A DNA stretch of 64,000 bases from NCBI GenBank assembly GCA_022695795.1, contig MU404057.1:496001-560000 (forward strand), read 5' to 3'. Within the stretch, counting starts at the first letter, position 1. Each line of letters starts with the position of its first letter. Source of the DNA: Biscogniauxia marginata. Lineage: Eukaryota > Ascomycota > Sordariomycetes > Xylariales > Xylariaceae. Position numbers and translations under genes: made by a program. Positions 6,012-19,692 of this stretch are shown here, piece by piece. The notes under the pieces were generated by a model that was given only the letters and a program-made list of their open reading frames with translations, made no database searches and was not told the origin of the DNA.

Positions 6012-8257
6012 ATGGTGGTCTTCAAAGGAAAGGCCGAGACGGGCGCTTCAGACCCTATCCTCACCCGCCTCGCGAATGAGGACAAAGTTCCATGGTACAG
6101 GAAACCTAACTTGCGTCTGCTCTATCTGTTGCTCTTCCCAACATGTATGGGAATCGAGTTGACGTCCGGATTCGACTCGCAAATGATCAACGCTCTTCAG
6201 ATTGTACCGTCGTGGAACGAATGTGAGACCAACTGCCCTCGTGGGAATGATATCAGAAGTAGTGGCCGCTGACTTGTCTTTGAACAACAAGACTTTCATG
6301 ATCCAGATGGCCCGCTCAAGGGTATCATCTCTGCAGCTTACTCGCTCGGTGCTATTCTGTCTCTTCCATTCATTGGCATCGTCAACGACAGATTTGGACG
6401 AAGATGGTCTATCGCTGGGGGGTCGATGATCATGGTGATAGGTGCCTTAATCCAGGGCTTCTCCGTGCACGGTAAGCATCTTCAGCCTCCGATATCTAGT
6501 GTAAAGAAAACCTTGCTAACTCTTAATCCCCCAAGCTGGCATGTACGTCGTTGCACGTCTCATCCTTGGATTCGGCATCCCCACGTGTATCGTGTCAGCT
6601 TCCTCGTTAATAGGAGAGCTATCGTATCCGAAAGAACGGCCTGTGCTGACGTCGCTGTTCAACGTCTCATATTTCATTGGCCAGCTTCTTGCCGCCGGTA
6701 TATGCTTCGGGACAAATAGCATTGCGAATAATTATGCTTGGAAAATTCCGTCATGGCTTCAAATGTGCCCGTCTCTTGTGCAGATCAGCATGATATTGTA
6801 AGCTAATTTGTCGCGACCTTTGAGGCTTATCAACCGGGCTGATTTGATATCAAGCTTTATCCCCGAGAGCCCTCGATGGTTAGTCACGCAAGACAGGAAT
6901 GAAGAAGCGTTTGATATTTTGGCAAAATACCATGCCGAGGGTGATCGCGAATCTGAATTCGCAAAGGCCGAATTTGCACAGTTGCAGACGACTATTAACA
7001 TCGAGCTTGAGCATTCGAAGAGGTCTTATATGGATCTTATAGCAACTAGTGGCATGCGACGACGAATGCTCATCAGCGCCATGCTTGGCCTTTTTACACA
7101 GGTGAGCATCAAATCGTTCGTTTGCTATAATATTATATTAGTAGGTGCTAACTATTACCGGAGTGGTCTGGAAACACGCGTATGTGAATATCAGCGATTC
7201 CGTAACATTTTTTATATCTGTGAAGTCACAATCCTGTGCTAGATTTCTTTAGAACAATCTTCTTACGTTCAACCTTCCGCAAGAATCATGACATATCTTT
7301 AGCTATGAGCTACAGAATAAGCTAACAAGGCGAAACGTAGTCATCTCATACTACCTGAGTGATATTCTCGAAATGATCGGCAAGAGCGATTCGGTCTTCA
7401 AGCAACAAATCAACGTCGCCGTATGGAATCTTCCCCCTTCTCTTATAAGTTCTCTCTGGCTATTACTTACTTGGATCTATTTTGATTCGACAATTCTGTC
7501 TCCCGCTAACTCTACATACTGTAGATGGCGGCCTGGAGTTTGATTAGTGGCACAGTAGCATCCCTTCTTGTTACCCGCTTCAAACGCAGGCAGATGTACC
7601 TCGCATGTACGATAAGCTTGTTATTCGTATATATCGGCTGGACGATCAGTATGGAGAGGGCAATTACTGGCCGCTTGTCTGGAAACCCAAACGATGCTGC
7701 GAATGGGCTCGTCCTCTTATTTATATTCCTATATAGCCCTTGCTATAACATCGGGTACAACGCGTTGACCTACAGTAGGTTTTTTCCAGGTTGTTTTGCG
7801 CCAGTTAAGCTGATGGGGGGTTAACACTGAATCTAGCTTTCATGGTTGAACTTTGGCCCTATACTGAACGGTCTCGTGGCATTGCCTTCTTCCAACTATT
7901 CGGCCGGCTCGCAGGGTTTTTCACCACCTTCGTCAACCCAATTGGTCTTGAAAATGCCAGCTGGAAGTATCTTATCTCCTATTGCTGCTTCCTAGCGTTT
8001 GAGATCGCCTTCGTGTACTTTGTGTTCCCGGAGACATTTGGTAGAACACTCGAAGAACTTGCCTTCTGTGAGTTTCCAATGTAAAATGAAACGAAAATTA
8101 GAGGTCTCTTTACTAACTCAGTCACTTCGCGTCAGTATTCGAAGATAAGGCGCTTGCCGAAGAAGCTGTGCGTGCTGTTGAGAAAGTGGTGGGGCACGAG
8201 GAGAATAACGAGAGTGAGTCGAAGATTGGCACAGCAGTGACTAAGGAGCGCATCTAA
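6012..8257 (+). CDS. MFS sugar transporter (hexose/lactose-permease type), nine exons
   Basis: Exons 6012-6222, 6292-6471, 6536-6797, 6855-7101, 7164-7179, 7341-7420, 7525-7774, 7837-8067 and 8136-8257 give 532 residues, the usual size. All introns are GT-AG and the frame closes through every junction. Sugar-porter signatures are in order: GFDSQMINALQ in the first membrane segment, NDRFGRRWSIAGG in the TM2-TM3 loop, PESPRWLV after TM6, WSGNTLISYYLSDILEMIG at TM7, and PETFGRTLEELAFLFED at the C-terminus. The WSGNT sequence is encoded by a 16-nt exon (7164-7179) between introns of 62 and 161 nt. The family imports mono- or disaccharides with protons across the plasma membrane; the substrate is not predictable. 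It is followed in the same direction by guanine deaminase 349 bp downstream, which may be chance. Confidence 0.9.
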
Positions 8258-8606
8258 GCAGAGCACGAGGAGCTTCTCAGCTATATTTTTGGTAACCGAT
8301 TCAATGTAGTTCTAATTCTAAGTAAATGCTTGATAACTTAATTCACTGACTGTGGTACTAAATAATGTTCATAGTTGAACTCCCCACCAAGCCACCTATA
8401 TCGGCATGTATGTGTAGGCATCGGAGAGATAGGGGGGAACTGCGTGTCTGTTGCGCCGGGACAGCTGTGGCCGGACCGCCACGCTATGATAATTCAAACG
8501 GTGATAGGTACGTAGGTTAGGTTCGGTACGTAGAAATTGATCGATTGTGCTCGTGAGGGGTTCATTGTCAGCACGGAATACTGATACAAATACCGTCCCT
8601 TAAAAT
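8258..8606. other. Intergenic, promoter side of guanine deaminase
   Basis: Holds the 3' end of the transporter transcript and the upstream region of the deaminase gene. No ORF, repeat or clear core-promoter motif recognised. Confidence 0.5.
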
Positions 8607-10129
8607 ATGGCTCCGTTCCAAGTCTTTCACGGGACTATCATACATTCGCTTGCACCGGATCAGATAGAAATTATTGACAATGGGGCTATCACCATCGGAC
8701 CACATGGCATCATAACGGCCCTCGATAAGTCCATCTCGCGAGACCTGGTCTATCAACATCTGTCTTCGTCTAGTAAGCTTCCTATCGATGACTTCGATAT
8801 CCATTACCTAGAACCAGGCGAGTTCCTTATCCCGGGGTTCGTTGATACGCACAATCATGCACCACAATGGGCACAGCGCGGCCTAGGACAGAGCAGTAAG
8901 CTAATTTCGGAGTTCTTTATCACCCTTTATAGCCTGTCTCATGAGTAAAACATGCCTATTCTGGCTTGTTGTATGAGTTTTTGCTCCCCACACACATGTT
9001 TCATGGGTTAAAAACAGTCCAAATGTAGCAATTACTGACTCCCTTTTCTGCAGTGCATATCTTAGACTGGTTAGACAAAATTACGTTTCCAAATGAAGCG
9101 CGCTTCAGTGACCCTGAGTATGCAAAGCGCATCTACTCCAGCTGCGTAGACGGCTTTCTCAAACAGGGCATCACAACTGCATCATACTACGGATCTATGC
9201 ATGCCGAAGCCACAAAGATCCTTGCCGATTTGTGCGTCAAGAAAGGACAGCGAGCGTTCGTTGGGAAATGTAATATGAACCGGAATGCCCCTGATTATTA
9301 CCGAGATGCTACGGTTGAGTCTTCGCTCAAAGATACGGAAGACTGTATTGCACATATTCGAGGAATAGACCCCGATGGCAACCTTGTTAAGCACGTACTC
9401 ACGCCCCGGTTTGCCATCACCTGCGATGATGCATTACTCGCCGGGCTGGGTGAAATAGCAAAAACCAACCCCGACCTACCTATCCAGACGCATTTCAACG
9501 AGGCAGAGCAGGAGATGTCCTTCACCAAAGCCCTGTTTCCCAGTTTCACAAATGAAGCTGACCTTTATGAGCACTTTGGTTTACTCACACAACGTTCCAT
9601 ATTGGCGCACTGCTGCTACATGTCTGATTATGAGATGAAGCGGCTCGAAGATGTTGGTTGTGGTGTCGCGCACTGTCCCATCTCTAACATGACGGTTGGT
9701 GGTGGTTTCATGGCCGCACCAGTGCGGGAATTCCTTCGACGTGGTATCAAAGTAGGGCTTGGTACAGACAGCGGTGGCGGATTCTCAAGCAGCATACTGG
9801 ACGCTATGCGACAGGCGCTTGTAGCTTCTAACGCCAAAGAGGTCATGAGTCAAGGTCAGGATAAGGGCTTGACGATTGCAGAGATCTTCTACCTGGCGAC
9901 TCTAGGCGGCGCGAGAGTCTGCTGTTTGGGCGACAAAGTTGGAAACTTCGCGGTCCATAAGGAATTCGATGCCTTACTAGTCAGCTCGAACGATACGTAC
10001 CTAGGCGTCATGACTATGGTCGAGGAGGGTGATTCTGCACGGACTATGTTTGAGAAATTCATTATGACGGGAGATGATCGAAACATCAAACAAGTCTTTG
10101 TACGGGGACGATCTGTTAAGGTTCGTTAG
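8607..10129 (+). CDS. Guanine deaminase (amidohydrolase superfamily)
   Basis: Exons 8607-8895 and 9054-10129, 454 residues. The enzyme hydrolyses guanine to xanthine and ammonia in purine salvage or nitrogen scavenging, in the cytosol. The metal ligands expected for the family are visible: the HxH pair in PGFVDTHNHAPQ (His82, His84), His243 in QTHFNEAEQEM with Glu246 beside it, His282 in ILAHCCYMS, and Asp335 in GLGTDSGGG. GVAHCPISN is also family-typical. The start ATG is followed directly by the small beta-sandwich start typical of these enzymes. Its only intron is the 158-nt introner-like element described separately; splicing joins A to TG as an ATG codon and gives GQSMHILDWLDKITF, which fits the family. 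Retaining the intron would end the protein after about 113 residues. Confidence 0.93.
8896..9053 (+). mobile_element. Introner-like element, copy A (intron of guanine deaminase)
   Basis: A 158-nt GT-AG intron in phase 1 (A, then TG of an ATG codon). Most regular introns in this window are 48-76 nt. It aligns along its whole length with the introns at 12079-12234 and 18609-18453. Shared blocks include GTTTTTGCTCCC with copy C, TAAAAACAGTCCAAAT with copy B, and TAGCAATTACTGACTCC at the branch site with copy C. A CCCA/TGGG stem lies just before the TTAAAAACAG block. The host gene is unrelated to the hosts of the other copies, so common ancestry of the genes cannot explain the match. Confidence 0.85.
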
Positions 10130-11276
10130 AAGGTAGCTCGAGGAGGCGTAATATCCATGGTAGATATTACGCCTGCATAGACACGATATCCAGTCGGAAT
10201 CCATTCATTAGGTATTCTCTTATCGTAAATTTTTGATGACCACAAGGGCTGCTCCTTTCCGCACCCCTGCTTCGTCATAGCAGTATGAGCATAGCTCGAC
10301 TAGCCCGCTTGTCTTGCAATTGAATAGCCGTGACTCATTAAATTCGGCGATCGTGTATGATGCCGATTTCAGAGTTGTTAGGAGGTTTAATCTTCGGCCT
10401 ACACAAGTATAGGGTATTTTAAGCCACGCAATGAGATCAAATAAGAAATGAGCCCGGTGGGGATATGCAGACAGTATAACCGTAGTCCCGGGTAGAGGAC
10501 AAGGATATGTTCATGGCCTAATCATAATAAGAGATTAAGGATAGTGAACGAATCCATTTAGTCATACGACTTGAGAACGAGTCTCCATCTCCTTACCACA
10601 AAGTCAGTGACAAGGGTAAGCTGAACGGGTAGTCCTGGGATAATCCACTCCTACTACCGGACTCTGGGGTTCTAGACAGTATTCCGCGGCTCAAATCGAT
10701 AAAAAAAATTAGGCAGTTCGTTCGTATACACTCATCATATACTATATCCGGCAAGGCGGTCGAGACGCGGCAGGATAACAGACGATTTGTATATATTCAT
10801 TAGGAGGGTCCATGAAACCCCTACTGTCTACGATACCTGAATTATCCTGCGTTCATATCATCACAAACAATTGTTTGATCCATCGCGGCTCGATGAGGTC
10901 GCCTGGGATACTTAACGTAGCTGCTGAACTTTGGTTATTATCGTTAATCATTTTAATTGAGTACTTGAGCAGGAATGAGACCCTCGCAAGTGATCAGTTT
11001 TACCAAATTAGGAAAGTAAGTTTGCATACAACAGCAGTGATGGCTGAACTAAGATAGCTTTGTTGATGTCAAGGTTCATGAAAAGCTTCCTGAAGAACAA
11101 AAGGATATTTCTGGTGGAGCTTTTGGCGAAACCCTATCTCTACGTATTTATTTTCAGTCCATGCCACTCGAACCAGAATTGGCAAAGATGGCATACCATC
11201 AATTCAATTTACACCTTGGAAGGAAATTTCAAATCGAGAACAGCAGCAGCATCTGGCGAGGCACTCTTTTACCATC
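10130..11276. other. 1.1-kb intergenic region
   Basis: Lies between guanine deaminase and the siderophore transporter, both on +. An inverted repeat, GTAATATC / GATATTAC, just after the deaminase stop (about 10148-10171) could help 3'-end formation. The small ORFs at 10812-11057 and 11060-11338 show no family features and overlap the transporter start; not called. Confidence 0.5.
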
Positions 11277-13535
11277 ATGACAAAGTTACCACACGTAAAG
11301 GATACAGACCAGACTACTTCTGCACCAGCTCTGAGTAGTCTCTCAGAATCCCAGCCGATAAATAACGGCTCATGTGCTGAGCACAACAATGTCGATATCG
11401 AGAAGCAAGATAATCCCGAAAAAGGAAATTTCACTACCAACAGCCATGGAATTTGGGGCAAAACGGGTTGGTGGCTTGTTATTACTGGGTAAGCCAAATA
11501 TCACCGCAATACTATATTACTAGTTGCTAACCTCTTACAGGTTATTTCTAATCACAGTCATGTAGTAAGTATCACCCATATACCCAGCTTCTGGAGAGAC
11601 GAGTTAACAATGATATGTAGCGAGATCGACAACGCTACTCTGTACATATACCGCAATTATGCCATGTCAGAATTCCAACAGTTATCGAAACTTGCTACAC
11701 TGATGACGGCAAGCACGATTATCTCTGCCGTTGCAAAACCGCCAATAGCAAAGCTATCTAATGTCATCGGTCGCGGCCAGACCTATTTTATGACCATTTG
11801 CCTCTACATAATATCATATATCATCATGGCTTCCGCAAAGGATTTCAGCACTTATACCGCGGGCTCGTTTTTGTACTCAATAGGACAGTCGGGGACAGGG
11901 GTTATGAATGCTGTCACCGTTGCAGATATTACTACAGCCAAGTGGCGAGCCTTCGGTCTTGGACTGTCGTTCTGGCCATTCCTAGTCACTCCTTGGACGG
12001 CCGGTTTCATTGTTGAGACTGTGACAGCACAGACTGGTATCGGATGGCGCTGGGGTATTGGTATGATGGCAATCCTAAGTGAGTTGATTTTAGAGTTATT
12101 TATTCCCTCCTGTAGCCTACCAAGAGTACAACCTGCCTATGCTGGCTTGTTATATGGGGGTTTCGCCCCCCGAGACATTTTCCACGGGCTAAAAACAGTC
12201 CAAATATAGTAATTACTGACTCATTTTTCTGCAGTGCCTTTCTGTGGTAGTTTCATCACCACCACGCTGTGGTATTACCAGCGGAAGACGAAAAGACTGG
12301 GATCCACACCAGCATGCAACAAGATCTCTGTTCACGAGTTTTGCTCCCAGATTGATCTTGGGGGCATTCTGTTGTTCGCTGGAGGGCTCGGATCGCTCCT
12401 TTTACCACTGACCCTGGCCGCAACGACGCCACAGAGCTGGGGAACACCCTGGATTGGCGCTCTGGTTGCTGTTGGCGCTGTTTTACTCACAATCTTGCCA
12501 TTCTATGAGCATTGTCTAGCGAAGAACCCCTTGGTTCCGCCTCGTTATTTTGCAAATCGCACTATAGCTCTTTGTTTGATGTTGATCTTATGCGACGGCA
12601 TTAGTTACGGGGCCACCCACACCTATACGTAGTAAGTGTCCTCTACCATCTGGCCCCCTGCCCCTATATTTTCATGATACTTGCATGTGCTGAGTTGGTT
12701 GAAATCAAGATTATGTTCATTAAGCTCCAGTAAATCCTTATCATATAGTACGCTCACTAACACTTGTCTTTAGTGCCTGGGCAACGGTCGCTAAAGGCTT
12801 GAGTGCCCGCGATGCTACTTTCTATACATACACCACTTCTGTCACCCAAACACTCATCACCATCATTTCTGGACTGGTCATGGCAAAGACGAGAAGGTAC
12901 AAATGGCTATGTATACTTGGATCTGCTATCCAGCTTATCGGATATGGAGTTATGCTACGACTTAGAGGTGCTGAGAACAGCAGAGTTGAGATATACCTTC
13001 AGCAGGTAGTTCAAGGCCTCGGGGCTGGCACTTTTGCCACATCATTATTGGTCCCGTGCCAAGTTGTGGTTACGCATGCCGAAATGCCTCAGGTTACATC
13101 TCTATTCTTATGCTTTGCATTCGTAGGCGGGAGTATTGGCGCCTGCATCGCGGGAAGTATCTACACGAACACCCTCGAGCCAGCTTTATGGAATTACTTA
13201 GGCAATGAAGCAACGGCAGAAAAAATAACTGCACTAGCAAATTCGGTAACCGGTGCTGTTGCTGCTTGGGGCTCCCCTGAGAGAACGGCCGTCAGCTTTG
13301 CGGTGAGTTAGAAATAATCCCATTGCCTTTGCGGTTTAGTAAAATGCTGACTTCGTAGCAGTTCTCAGGCGTTTTGCACTATATCACCTACGCGGCGGTC
13401 GGCACCGCAGTGATACCTTTCATCAGCTCATTTTTCATGACCAACTACGAGTTGCCGTAAGTTATAATCTGCTGCCATTATTGAAGTGGATGCTGACGCC
13501 TTAGTAGCGAGAAGAATAACCTCGTCGATAAGTGA
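11277..13535 (+). CDS. MFS siderophore-iron transporter (SIT family)
   Basis: Exons 11277-11488, 11541-11564, 11621-12078, 12235-12631, 12774-13302, 13359-13456 and 13505-13535 give 582 residues, the usual SIT length. A polar N-terminal tail of about 65 residues is followed by a 14-segment membrane layout. Family features: YEIDNATLYIYRNYAMSEF after TM1, ADITTAKWRAFGLGLSFWPF, the inter-domain stretch LAKNPLVPPRYFANRTIALC, and YLQQVVQGLGAGTFATSLLV. SIT carriers take up ferric siderophores; the ligand is unknown and no siderophore synthetase is in the window. Exon 2 is only 24 nt. Intron 3 is introner-like element copy B. The acceptor of intron 5 could be 13358 or 13361, differing by one Gln. 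The C-terminus ends ELPSEKNNLVDK. Confidence 0.87.
12079..12234 (+). mobile_element. Introner-like element, copy B (intron of siderophore transporter)
   Basis: A 156-nt phase-1 intron, again A joined to TG to form ATG (AILMPFCGSF across the junction). It shares TAAAAACAGTCCAAAT, GCTGGCTTGTT-like and AATTACTGACTC blocks with copy A, and CCCGAGACAT and CACGGG with copy C. It contains a strong GGGGG/CCCCC hairpin with a TTTCG loop, and the CCCG/CGGG stem that replaces CCCA/TGGG of copy A. Confidence 0.85.
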
Positions 13536-13761
13536 AGGTATCGTAGCGGTTCAAAAGAGGTACTTCCAGGTTTTGTTGCAGTCTATCAATCGTTCTTGTT
13601 TAATTTCCAGAAACATGTAAGTATACTTAAGGGGTGTCATAATAACCCTTACTCGCCATATCATCATAATCTCTACTACTTCATTACGCCCAATTCTGCC
13701 CACCCGTCGACAGTCGGATTGATGATTGTCTGCTGATCTACCTTTGGTGGTAGACTTAGAG

Positions 13762-15913
13762 TCAATATAATCTCGAAGTGAATCGCCAATTCGACTTGGA
13801 CAGTCTCCGAATAGCTATCGCCATCGCGTCCGTTACATTCGCTGGTATTTCATCAAAAGGATAGATGTCTGGCTCACAGGACGTGCTAGGCGCTGGTAAT
13901 GTACCATTCTGGAAGTAAGAATGGATATATCCCGCCGTGCAGGTCGACGCGGCGGATAGAGAAGTATGCTAACCAGTCAGTCTGAGCTCGTAAGTGTGTA
14001 GACCAGAATACACTCACACCGTATGAGTTCTGTACCAAGACCACAGATCCAGGAAACCCCTCGGAATTGTTTCTCGCGCTCACCAGTGGGGTAATATTAT
14101 CGGCTATATTAGCTACATATCTGCGTTGTTGTTAGTCAGTCTAGATGCGTGGACCCCCCTAAGTCGACTTACAGAATGGGGAAACTAGTATTGCCCTCAA
14201 ATGGACCTGGGTTAGTTAGTTAGGTGGCTAGATTCTCTCGTTACATTGCGTAAAATACCTGTAAATCGCCATTTTGGTCTAATTGTTCTGCCGATGCATC
14301 CAAGCCTGTATAGAACATTCGTATCACCGGTGGAGGAACTGATTTTCTTTAGTTGTTCTACGTATGCTCCAAGCTCTTCAACAGTTTCATTGCTTTGTGG
14401 GTGGTCAGCACATGTGATGCCCGAGAAAGCGTCATCATTGCCCTCCTCCAAGCGTGGGACATTGGGCGGGATTGCTTCAACCGCGCAAATAGAGGTGGTG
14501 GAGCCTCCGGAAGTTGTTAATTTATAATACGGCTGGCCATCTTCATTCTCTAAGGCCCTCAACACCTCGGCAAACGGCTTAAAATTTTCTATTGGTCTGT
14601 ACAAAGTGTACAGGATTAGACGTCTTAAATGAGACCACTGGATGAGCTGCGGTATGTCAGGGCCTGAAAGGCCCGGCTCGCCTGCTGGCACGATCACAGG
14701 ATGCTCCCGGATATGCTCAAGCAGATTGTTTAGCCGCTGCTCAATCAGCGCTGGTGTCTCTGCGTAGAAATCACAGTTTGATGGGCCAGATTTATGGCAG
14801 AATTCATAGAATGCCGTCATAACTTTGTCCGAGTCTCGTATAAAGTTGATATATTTGTTGAGATGCCATTCCCGATAATCGACATTACCTAGTATCCATC
14901 AGCTTTGGTGGGATGACTATAGATTGAAACTGGAAAAGGGAAAGAAAAGAAAACCTGTAATTACCATCACTGACAAGCCTTTCAACCTTGTCTGGGTACA
15001 TGGCAGCAAATACGCCGCCCAGGATGGTACCGTAACTAAACCCCCAGTACTTGAGCTTCTCGCCACCCGTTTGATGCAGGATTTCAAGCATGTCTCTAGC
15101 ATGGGAGGCAGTACTTATATGCCTCAACAAGCCCGATTTTTTCATAGTTCGCTCACAGTTCTGAGAAAAAGCGGTCGCTCTGGCATACGCATCATGAAGG
15201 ACACCGGGATGTGCGTCAACAACGCCGACGTCCTGAAGCGACCACCTCCTGGCTTTCTCTGGGGAGTCCCAGCATTGAATTCGAGGTAGCGTGCCGCCTA
15301 TTCCTCGGGGATCGAAAGAGATGAGATCATGGTTCTTGCCGATGATGGTTTGTAGCAATTCGCCACGGTCTTTCATCGCGTAGACGCCGCTTCCACCCGG
15401 CCCTCCCGGATTGAAGAAGACGGGTCCCTTATAGTCATTACGTTCCGTAGCGCGAAGGCGTATCACAGCTAATTCCACTCGGTCGTCGTCAGAAGGATCT
15501 AGCCAGTCCATGGGAACGTCGAGTCTTGCGCAGTCGTACGTATCATCATAGCAGCGATGCCACTGCAACATCCTGCTGGATTGAATGCTGCCCCAGCTCC
15601 ACTCTGGTCGAGTCAAATTACCAGATCTGCTCTGAAATCCATAGAAGATTCTCTCCGCAACACGCGTGCCATCAGCTTGGTGAAATATAAGGGTTATCGT
15701 TAAGAGTCCAAGTATGGCGGCGGCGGCCGGCTGCCAAGACTTCCATCGCGATGTTTTCTTCGGCATCTCCATCGAGAATGAGTTTCCAGATTTGGTGTCT
15801 GACTTAAGCACTTCCTGGAGACTGGGCGACATCGTCGACGAAACTCCCAGGGTCCTTTGCATGCCTCGATATTTAAACGCATATGATGCGACTTGGACGT
15901 AGTGGGACGGCAT
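13762..15913 (-). CDS. Membrane-anchored alpha/beta hydrolase with TAP C-terminal domain
   Basis: Exons 15913-14965, 14888-14259, 14206-14173, 14120-14018 and 13968-13762, 640 residues, similar to tripeptidyl-aminopeptidase-like hydrolases (peptidase S33 type). A hydrophobic segment at about 57-75 (AAAAILGLLTITLIF) looks like a type II signal anchor. Oxyanion loop FFNPGGPGGSG; nucleophile Ser293 in WGFSYGTILG; probable catalytic Asp545 in VANIADNITPL; catalytic His573 as the first codon of the last exon, in NSYGHTSLSAAS. The intron between exons 1 and 2 must end at 14889, because every nearer acceptor leads to a stop; the result, VSDGNVDYREWHLNKY, is family-like. The bacterial and fungal relatives remove N-terminal peptides or act on esters; the substrate here is unknown. 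It converges with the siderophore transporter across 226 bp. Confidence 0.88.
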
Positions 15914-17647
15914 TTACGGCAGGTCACCGACCCTTGGCCATTGGCCATTGGCCATTTCCCTTGGTCTTGGCAATTCCTACCTATTCCAAGGATCCTTATC
16001 TCTCCCACTGCATGTTCTTGTGTTTCTTAAGTGCATTTTGGCACCTGCCAATTGAATTATCCCCTCACTGATAGGTACGTTACATTTGCTATTGGTGCCG
16101 ATTGAGGCACTCCAAGCACAGGGAATTCTCCAATCATGCCAGTCTGTCGGACTCGTAGGAACTCTTTTTATCGTTCAAGATTCAAATTAACAATTTGATC
16201 ACGAGAGTGGATGGTAATATGATTCATATCGTTTTGATTATACTACTTACATCGCATCATAAAGCAAGGTACACAAACGCAAGAGGGAACGTGTGTCACG
16301 ACTATCTTTTTATGTTACTCGCCAGAGCCTATTGAGGATATAATATGCGACAATAAAACAGGATGGCATCTTTCCTATGATGTTGAATTAAGGGTTAGGA
16401 CTTCGCAGAGAACGTTGATAATAGTCTCGAAATTTACTATATGGCTGATATCAAGAAGGTAACTTGTTGAACCTAATATCTATAACAATATTATAAGTCG
16501 ATGAGTGGGGTGACTAATGCACCCAGGATTTAAATGCAAATTTTCGGTAGCTACACTAGATTTCCCTGGACCATCAGAATTACAACCCACGTTCGTTTTC
16601 TTTTGGTTTGCTTCTCCTCATCCAACATCGACAATAATGATTATATTATTAGGTATTAGTACATGGAAGTTTTATTTTGCCGCAAAGTCTGCTTTCTAGC
16701 TAAGGATTGATTACGAGGGTCTCATGAGTAACAATGTATTTCTGTAACCCGGCTATCCCTGTCCTAGCGAAGATCGAAGCCACCTTTAAAGCCGAACATG
16801 ACAATGCTATCAACTAGCCAGTCAAACAAAATCCAGCCACGATACTAGTTAAAGAGTCTTAATTCTGATAATAGTGGCCGGCTACTCAAGAAAAATATAC
16901 ATAATCTCTTTAGGGTTGATTTGTAGTGCAGAATTTGACATGCCTCTAGTTATGCGAGAGAACACTTGTAGAGAGACTTTGATTATGAGGTAAACACCAC
17001 TGTTGCTTAACTGCACATTAAGTTAGACATTTGCATATAAATAGGATAATAAAACTTGTTATACCCGTCTGGGCCCGAGTCTTGGGTAATCCGGGCGGGT
17101 GGACAACGAGAATTTATCAATATCCTAATAGTGACCTTATATATTTCAATTTCCTTTCCGTTTGTTGTCGCGCAACGTCATTCCCGGGACAATTTTCAAC
17201 ATAGAACGAAAGGACGCCAGCTTATGACAGCCAGCTCAGCTTAACACTATCGCTCAGCACGGCACAATGATTATTATTTGGGTAGGTAATTATATGTAAA
17301 CTGAACATTACCCTGGCATTTGTCCCAGAAAGCCCGACGAGATCTAAATGGATGGAATTTCTATATTTATTGTATTAACAAATAATAGAATCATTTGATT
17401 TGCCCTATAAAACAAAATCCCATCCAATTTTCACCTCGCTTCTACACTGTGAAGAAAGATGGGACTCTCTCCCTCTATGTAGGGTCATACTGTCTTCGTA
17501 CCAATCCAGACCGGACCGGAAGTACATGTCAATATGTCTCCTTCGCGACTACACGTGGCTTGGACATATCCAACACCGACAGCGTCAAACGGGGTACTAG
17601 TCTGCCGTTAGCAAGAGGCTTTCAAGAAGAGACGTCAATATCATCGC
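15914..17647. other. 1.7-kb intergenic region
   Basis: Upstream of the hydrolase (-) and downstream of the secreted-protein gene (-). A heptamer GGCCATT is repeated three times in tandem near 15937-15958, close to the hydrolase start. Small ORFs near 16517, 17056 and 17395 are unsupported. Otherwise nothing seen. Confidence 0.5.
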
Positions 17648-18790
17648 TCACGTGTTGCTGCAATTCCAAGTTTGGGTTATCATGAGTATATCTAGTTCTG
17701 TGTCAAAACGGAACGTTGCCATAGTCGTACTCGCCGAGTCACCCTCAATCTCTGACTTGCAAGTCCCGTCGAATGTGCTGTTACTTTGGTTTGCCGACGT
17801 TGAGCAGTCGAAGATGTCGGTATTGGCCATATTTCTCAGCGTGAATGACGGGCCCGTGTCCGATGGCGACGCAGTGGCCGGGCTAGAGGATAGATATCCT
17901 GGGTCTAGTTCGTACTGACGTATCCAGTTTTCGAGCTGCCATGACTGGTATCTCTCTGAGTTATCCGCACAGTCTGATCCGGCATCTAGGCGAGCTGGTG
18001 CAGCTTTGGTGGTGATCACTAGGCTCGAAGTATCATTGTAAGTCGGCAACATACAACTGGTACTGTCATCGGTTTCCTCTGTACAGTTCATATCGAAATG
18101 TATAAACCCTGTCGCCAGTACATCGGTTCTATTGCCGGGATGTTAGTTTAAGCGGGTCATTTGGATTCCTTGCATTACTTTACTCTTCACGAGCGAACAT
18201 TAATATTAGCATGGACTAACAGAACTGATACTTACCCTGGTCTATCCGAGCAGTCGAATGTGTGAGCTATGTATATTGTATGATTCTTCCAGTCCATAGC
18301 AAAAGCAACAGTCGTATCGTATGTAGGTCCGTTTCCAGCCCAGATGCAGTCACTCCAGACGATGTTTTTGTCTTCGTACCATCCAGACCATGGTTCAGGC
18401 CACTCCGCAACGCACTCAAAAAAGGTCGCGTACGTGTTGTTGCCCGGCACGACTACAGAAAAAGGAGTCAGTAATTGCTATGTTTGAACTGAATTTTAAC
18501 CCGTGAACCATGTCTCGGGAGCAAAAACTTATACAACAATCCAGAATAAGCAGGTCCTAACCCTGAGGCAGGTTATGGGAGGCAATTGAGAACTCCAAAA
18601 TTAACTCACTGCTGACGGCCACGGTGGCTGACCCGTTACTTTGGCTTGTGTCCGCGCCATCGTATCTAGCATCACCTACGCGCCACAGGTATGTTGAAGA
18701 TTCGGTCGTGCTATTGCCACATGCTCTGGCAGCATATGCTCCGGACGCGAGCCAGAGCGACGTAGCATAGTAGAGTAGGGCGTTTTGCAT
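17648..18790 (-). CDS. Secreted Cys-containing glycoprotein of unknown function
   Basis: Exons 18790-18610, 18452-18236 and 18128-17648, 292 residues. A signal peptide of about 20 residues ends SGAYA. The mature part holds many N-glycosylation sequons and several Cys, with no transmembrane segment or anchor signal. I do not recognise a named family. The two halves resemble each other: one segment ends TTVAFAMDWKNHTIYIAHTF followed by DCSD, the C-terminal one ends with the same spacing (TTMATFRFDT ... ITQTWNCSN), so it may be a duplicated beta-rich module. Intron 1 (157 nt) is introner-like element copy C; intron 2 is 107 nt. The donor of intron 2 (GTAAGT after CCAGG) and its acceptor are supported by frame only. 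It is divergent from the DUF1996 gene across 0.9 kb. Confidence 0.75.
18453..18609 (-). mobile_element. Introner-like element, copy C (intron of unknown secreted protein)
   Basis: A 157-nt phase-1 intron on the minus strand, splicing A to TC (Ile codon). It aligns end to end with copies A and B: GTGAGTTAATTTTGGAGTTC at the 5' end, a TTATTCTGG block, GTTTTTGCTCCCGAGACATG, CACGGGTTAAAA, and TAGCAATTACTGACTCC before the CTGTAG acceptor. Copies A and C follow the exon bases AGCA. Confidence 0.85.
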
Positions 18791-19692
18791 CGTGAAGAAT
18801 GCCGAGGTTGCTTGAAAGAAACCGTGAATTATGTTTAGGTAAGTTTCACCATCTACTTCATCAGCAAGTGATAGAAGGGATCCAAGAGGCTGCCGGCAAG
18901 TGATCTATCCTAAGTCCTATTAGTTATATCAAATATACATATTAACTGCCGAACTTCCCAAGAGTTACATTTAATATGGAAGTGCAAGTCGGAAGTAGGG
19001 AGCTACCTCTACTTTAACCGTCTAAGAGTAATATAAATACTAGGTTGCACAGTTGGGAACCAAAGATACAATCATTAATTTAGTGATAAGGGAAACAATT
19101 ATCTTCAATATGTGCCTAAATATTAGATCTGTGTGTGTACATTTCATATTCCATTCATAACACTTTGATACTCTAAGAATCTAGCCATGCACCCATTTCT
19201 TAGTTAACTGTAAGAAAAATATCATATCTATTTGTTCGTCGATACTCATGCTAGACTATAATCACTAATCTATGGGGTTTAGAACCTGCATTGATACACG
19301 CCTAGCTAAGTTTTTTGCATCTAGCCTAAATATTTGTTATTTCTTATTACTATCTGCTATCGAAAGGGTGTGGTGGGGATAGAGTAGAGCAGGAGGTTGA
19401 TTGGGAGGAATTTTTACCGGCTGAATCAAATCGCCCTTGGCGATACCTACTATTGGGTGAAGAGGCAAATTTTGTCCGGGTTGTACGTGTAGGAATATGC
19501 CGGCTTCTGTAGTGAATATACGATTAAGCCTGAGAGCTATCGCCCAGATAGATAGTGCTGTCATTATCTTCAGAGTGATAAACTCGTGTATATAGGAATC
19601 ACAGACTAAGATATAATACGAGCAACGTGTAGTTAGGTTGTTTCGCCTCACTCCTTTCTGGCGCAGCTACTAGCAATTGTTTTCGTTTCAAG
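18791..19692. promoter_or_regulatory. Shared divergent upstream region of two secreted-protein genes
   Basis: A 0.9-kb AT-rich region between the start of the unknown secreted protein (-) and the DUF1996 gene (+). It should contain both promoters. I found no convincing TATA box or named binding site; the ORF at 19337-19651 (-) has no support. Confidence 0.4.

Follow-up and report, generated by a model that had tools for sequence, protein, structure and literature searches.

A family of introner-like elements in Biscogniauxia marginata inserted at a YR^TS motif

The origin of new spliceosomal introns is a question of long standing, and the mechanism by which introners spread in fungi is contested. 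The introner-like elements (ILEs) of Dothideomycetes have been described as preferring AG/GY insertion sites and a particular codon phase (van der Burgt et al. 2012, as cited in PMC8469720) and as having a predicted stable structure (as cited in PMC8469720), and ILE families that are probably active have copies with 98-99% identity (Collemare et al. 2015, PMC4457414). Reverse splicing was argued for fungal introners by earlier authors, who are cited for the AG/GY preference (PMC8469720). For the sister (stw)introns of Hypoxylaceae, Fekete et al. 2021 (PMC8469720) describe no exon-border pattern and no phase bias; they suggest that the internal symmetry of these introns is needed for movement, and they proposed capture at DNA breaks. 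In the survey of Gozashti et al. 2022 (PMC9860276), target duplications were found in 49 of 130 families and terminal inverted repeats in 72 of 177, and the ascomycete introner families are described there as having neither.

The stretch analyzed here (the window, 64,000 nucleotides) corresponds to C3:496001-560000 of a 45.3-Mb assembly in 229 contigs. It contains three related introns, I1 to I3, which lie with their host reading frames as follows.

8607..8895, + strand: guanine deaminase exon upstream of I1, beginning with ATG
8896..9053, + strand: I1, introner copy of A-type, 158 nt, in the guanine deaminase gene; site A^TG; branch-site A at 9038
9054..10129, + strand: guanine deaminase exon downstream of I1, ending with TAG
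11493..12078, + strand: open frame running into I2, with an MFS_1 match (piece L031:915-1499)
12079..12234, + strand: I2, introner copy of B-type, 156 nt, in the MFS-type transporter gene; site A^TG; branch-site A at 12219
12235..12629, + strand: open frame past I2, with a TRI12 match (piece L031:1659-2051)
18235..18450, - strand: open frame downstream of I3, 72 codons, not joined to the upstream piece
18453..18609, - strand: I3, introner copy of B-type, 157 nt; site A^TC; branch-site A at 18468
18611..18904, - strand: open frame upstream of I3, 98 codons, phase 1, not joined to the downstream piece

The preliminary description of this DNA had placed three homologous introns at exactly these coordinates, and their end-to-end homology (75-78%), their lengths within 2 nt of each other and both exact shared runs that it quoted were all recovered. 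In pairwise blastn comparisons, I1 and I3 are 78.0% identical over 159 columns (E 4.5e-31), I1 and I2 75.9% over 158 columns (E 2.8e-27), and I2 and I3 75.5% over 159 columns (E 1.8e-23). Each of the three starts with GT, ends with CAG or TAG, and is inserted at A^T followed by S. They are homologous end to end with a similarity far beyond chance, since patterns from the 5', 3' and central parts had 52, 50 and 43 genome matches while the reversed patterns had none. The hosts of the first two are unrelated, as had been claimed: an amidohydrolase (guanine deaminase) for I1 and an MFS-type transporter, with MFS_1 before and TRI12 after the intron, for I2. The statement that these introns are two to three times as long as most introns nearby was a little high, the median of 53 ordinary-intron candidates being 87 nt when candidates are sought at 42-120 nt only. 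Conceptual translation with I1 kept in stops the guanine deaminase at 113 residues, and its removal gives a protein of 454 residues, in whose alignment with the known guanine deaminase structures 2uz9 and 3e0l no gap lies around junction residue 97. No Rfam family matched in window positions 8000-19500.

A whole-genome search, which had been proposed as a check on the three introns, brought further copies. When the results of DNA queries, patterns and one divergent copy were merged, the family comprised at least 74 distinct copies, 73 of them complete, and all copy counts given here are lower bounds. Two DNA queries had 40 and 33 genome matches. The three patterns named above were a 30-nt 5' pattern (allowing at most 3 mismatches), a 27-nt 3' pattern and a 34-nt central pattern; two additional patterns, with 19 and 30 genome matches, gave no new place beyond the 74, and reversed-pattern controls had no match in any of the five pattern searches. 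The divergent copy, spotted in a fetched flank, matched only itself when used as a query, and two exact introner patterns had no match in viral contigs. The 74 copies are divided between the strands as 42 and 32. In the copy at C71:45451 only model positions 1-63 are matched, and it was left out of the flank counts (n=73). By donor sequence the copies form two groups, one with GTRAGC (n=45; median divergence from its own consensus 7.7%) and one with other donors (n=28; 9.6%).

Several copies depart from the usual length. Those at L094, L095, L096, L097 and L104 measure from 172 to about 200 nt, some of them stretched by homopolymer runs and by short repeats along the element; this lengthening could be either real decay or assembly noise. 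The copy at L098 (C7:601274) measures 126 nt and has lost model positions 69-117; both ends are present, and it forms a shortened intron with intact splice signals. At L012:1332-1396, a low-scoring match (16.8 bits) to positions 36-100 of the model lies some 100 nt upstream of a full-length copy and is perhaps an old, decayed introner.

The element of about 156 nt carries its own donor (GTRAG), branch site (CTRAY) and acceptor (CAG). All 73 complete copies start with GT; the acceptors are CAG in 65, TAG in six and AAG in two, the final AG of all 73 being partly by construction, as the 3' end was placed by seeking AG in five copies (the second copy of L085, L097, L098, L104 and L108). CTRAY occurs within the final 40 nt in 70 of 73 copies, and in 58 of 73 the distance from the end of the last CTRA to the intron end is 15 nt. 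An alignment of 55 copies shows no variation at the GT, at the AG of positions 4-5, at the branch-site T and A, or at the terminal AG. Similarity among copies covers the whole intron from GT to AG. This extent and the unrelated hosts and flanks speak against the reading that these are not mobile introns at all, and are either repeats inside older introns or introns common by descent among related genes, which we find hardly credible.

No pair among the 73 copies has similar flanks (150-nt flanks, blastn E 1e-4), and the insertions therefore look independent. By codon score, the coding signal around the element is best in the sense orientation for 66 of the 73 copies, best in antisense for five and in neither for two, compared with 25.6% sense-best among 3000 random positions (window 1-40000); it is positive on both sides in 57 of 73 copies only. 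At least 30 open codons on both sides are found in sense for 66 of 73 copies and in antisense for 38 of 73, compared with 27% of random positions. The sequences are consistent with 73 separate insertions, nearly always into genes and in sense. The proposal that the introns themselves had multiplied as introner-like elements is upheld by the number of copies, the lack of flank-similar pairs and the sense coding context.

Seamlessness was assessed in several ways. Target-site duplications of 2-8 bp, sought at every offset, never occurred in more than one of the 73 copies, and exonic duplications were no more frequent than expected by chance. For 15 host genes, the pieces before and after the element were scanned apart against Pfam, some matches being under the curated cut-off (e.g. 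one OPT, both L024 pieces). The same domain was found on both sides in nine (alpha-amylase, glutamine synthetase, sugar transporter, two SDRs, MFS at L073, OPT, amidase and GGT), different domains in two (the I2 transporter and an oxygenase), a domain on one side only in three (guanine deaminase, a DNA methylase and an aminotransferase), and no domain on either side in one (L105). Profile numbering, when run to the junction, is exact in four cases (GGT, OPT and both SDRs) and off by one in alpha-amylase, glutamine synthetase, the sugar transporter and the amidase, whose matches do not reach the junction; for the MFS gene at L073 it cannot be judged. Distant paralogues of guanine deaminase (C20:425829, 43% identity) and GGT (C1:1188673, 55% identity) have a frame that is unbroken over the site, without an intron. 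Two other readings of the junctions were rejected. A ‘YAGT...CAGT’ repeat across them would cost the spliced gene one base, against the guanine deaminase alignment and the Pfam numbering, and an extra codon carried in by the element is ruled out by the ungapped guanine deaminase junction.

Assignment to the fungal-type introner-like elements is supported at the level of sequence, because similar introns occur in unrelated genes, the similarity extends to both splice sites, and the insertions appear seamless and lie in sense within coding sequence, these being the clearly testable features of ILEs. Like the Dothideomycete ILEs as described, the Biscogniauxia family consists of highly similar putative spliceosomal introns in unrelated genes, apparently with two copies in some of them. 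With the Hypoxylaceae sister introns, as characterized in PMC8469720, it shares seamless insertion into coding exons, predicted function on the coding strand, the lack of a target duplication and, as far as its consensus goes, internal symmetry; however, the 10-nt Hypoxylaceae palindrome TTTCTAGAAA is exact in none of the 73 copies and present within 2 mismatches in two. Like the introners of algae and other eukaryotes described in PMC9860276, some families of which carry both splice sites, it is element-derived and gene-enriched, but unlike many of those it has no duplication; it does have an imperfect internal inverted repeat.

The flanks of the 73 copies define an insertion-site motif, Y-R^T-S, which is a new result and was absent from the preliminary description. 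Position -2 is Y in 60 of 73 copies; position -1 is R in 64 and A in 48; position +1 is T in 70 and C in the remaining three; positions +2 and +3 are S in 71 and 58, respectively. The junction is A^T in 45 of 73 copies. R-T-S is found at 61 of 73 sites compared with 6.0% of coding positions (P 3e-62), and Y-R-T-S at 53 of 73 compared with 3.1% (P 2e-63). The motif is common to both donor groups, with T at +1 in 43 of 45 and 27 of 28 copies. The base at +1, where the motif is most strictly kept, is attached to the 3' end of the element, and this joining step may be the one that reads the site.

If the excised intron were simply reverse-spliced into proto-splice sites (AG/G), as argued for the Dothideomycete ILEs, seamless insertion, sense orientation and exact intron ends would all follow, and this mechanism was proposed for an element of the same class. 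Nevertheless, AG precedes the junction in only one of 73 copies and G follows it in none, the site being YR^TS instead, and we consider this mechanism improbable for the present family. A motif this sharp and this unlike a splice site is not what plain reverse splicing would be expected to give; it would be in keeping with an endonuclease or a transposase.

Still less probable, in our estimate, is a survivor effect, in which insertion is random (e.g. by break repair, as proposed for Hypoxylaceae) and copies persist only where flanking YR and TS let them splice efficiently enough. According to PMC9860276, introners are indeed filtered by selection on splicing. However, ordinary introns seem to do without the motif: among the 53 ordinary-intron candidates from the same DNA, a heuristic set chosen by internal signals and an open frame that may hold false introns, T at +1 occurs in 14, A at -1 in 12 and S at +2 in 19. 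The difference from the introners at +1 corresponds to P 3e-17.

The motif also explains the distribution of intron phases. Among the 62 copies that have 50 or more open codons, 12, 39 and 11 are in phases 0, 1 and 2, respectively, which is uneven (p 5e-6). From the YATS sites of the same coding sequence, 11.4, 34.8 and 15.8 would be expected, in agreement with the observed numbers (p 0.38), and the expectation from YRTS sites fits as well (p 0.55). The phase-1 excess is accounted for by the target motif alone. Accordingly, target choice by itself can yield an intron-phase bias. Unlike the Dothideomycete ILEs, for which AG/GY is cited, the Biscogniauxia family uses YR^TS, avoids AG/G, and has a phase bias that follows its motif; unlike the Hypoxylaceae sister introns as reported (PMC8469720), it has both a strong exon-border pattern and a strong phase bias. 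YR^TS thus sets it apart from the fungal families that PMC4457414, PMC9860276 and PMC8469720 describe as AG/GY-preferring or motif-free.

The family consensus is predicted to fold into a long imperfect hairpin that starts at the donor and stops a little short of the branch site, with positions 1-2 paired with 138-137 and the branch A and the last G unpaired. Its folding energy is -41 kcal/mol compared with -28.4 (sd 3.7) for shuffles (z -3.4). Single copies fold little better than their shuffles (median z -1.7, 36% below -2, 72 copies; z -0.11 for I1 alone), and covariation of base pairs among 55 copies does not exceed that of shuffles (90.8% vs 90.5% paired). Ongoing selection on the hairpin is thus unsupported in these 55 copies. 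Because single copies have decayed and show no covariation, the modeled symmetry is likely ancestral; it was perhaps needed for movement and not for splicing.

A further reading is transposition at the DNA level: an enzyme would move a foldback element as DNA, cutting and joining at R^T with no host bases duplicated, and any copy that landed elsewhere than in a sense exon would be lost or selected away. The sharp target motif and the imperfect inverted repeat with its consensus hairpin would both fit, and Gozashti et al. (PMC9860276) concluded that movement as DNA applies to most introners from outside the ascomycetes. We nevertheless regard this route as rather unlikely here. There is no target duplication, and the boundaries of the element are precisely the splice sites. 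A DNA element should also be able to persist outside genes, and yet the great majority of the copies are sense-coding. The two DNA-query genome searches, moreover, returned no longer element with these ends. Helitrons insert at A^T targets and have TC...CTRR ends. Although A^T is found at 45 of 73 junctions, neither a TC start nor a CTRR end occurs in any of the 73 copies on either strand, and a Helitron was rejected as the source. A search for Helitron domains had no match, but its controls were equally silent, so that it says little.

We favor a transcript-linked route because of the sense coding bias, the exact intron ends and the lack of duplication: the family probably represents non-autonomous mobile introns, with seamless insertion of the excised intron at sites chosen by another activity. 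The hairpin intron, carrying its own donor, branch site and acceptor, would be excised from a transcript, and the intron RNA would then meet transcribed coding strands, or transcripts that are later copied to DNA. Its site would be picked by a nicking or joining activity with a YR^TS preference and not by spliceosomal exon recognition of AG/G, and the new copy would enter a coding exon in sense, duplicating no host bases, and would then be spliceable. Counter to this explanation are the sharp motif that does not resemble a splice site, the seven of 73 copies that are not sense-best, the fact that only 57 of 73 have a positive score on both sides, the six of 15 scanned genes without the same domain on both sides, and the weak folding of single copies, whose base pairs show no covariation beyond shuffles. 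More tentatively, we suggest a dedicated integration activity that reads YR^TS without spliceosomal exon recognition and joins the excised hairpin intron, or a copy of it, into coding strands without duplication. Such a mode of intron transposition is absent from the descriptions given in PMC4457414, PMC9860276 and PMC8469720, as far as these accounts extend.

These 73 insertions, which look independent, lie at a sharp non-splice motif, lack duplications and have phases explained by that motif, help to tell models of intron gain apart: capture at random breaks should leave no motif, and reverse splicing into proto-splice sites should leave a different one. The YR^TS motif provides a sequence signature for seeking the responsible activity, and a mobile intron family bound to a motif offers a new way into the question of intron gain.

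With regard to age, the identity of each copy to its nearest neighbor has a median of 0.891 and a maximum of 0.955. The preliminary description had proposed that the family was active fairly recently; an identity of at most 95.5% falls below the 98-99% given for probably active ILE families in PMC4457414 and lends that proposal no support. A local insertion bias, also proposed, is borne out in part. There are eight copy pairs within 10 kb compared with 1.2 expected (P 0.0004), and three within 1 kb compared with 0.12 expected; the 10-kb excess is weaker when insertion is taken to be restricted to a fraction of the genome (P 0.0016 at 60%; P 0.014 at 40%, with 3.0 expected). The closest relatives of the three window copies are on contigs C1, C115 and C89, and we therefore rejected the view that the trio are local copies of one another.

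Same-strand introner pairs 450-702 nt apart were observed at L027 (C193:30414 and 31116), L018 (C89:92191 and 92641) and L085 (C2:238654 and 239199). The C193 pair lies inside one open frame that is polyketide-synthase-like by eye. None of the introner flanks is AT-rich, the lowest flank GC being 0.45 (n=73). The window itself includes an AT-rich block (40000-64000, 22% GC), with the drop in GC beginning at about 38500. In this block TpA/ApT is 1.32, compared with 0.86-0.96 in the first 40 kb, and (CpA+TpG)/(ApC+GpT) is 0.43, compared with 1.07-1.16, a signature that resembles repeat-induced point mutation.
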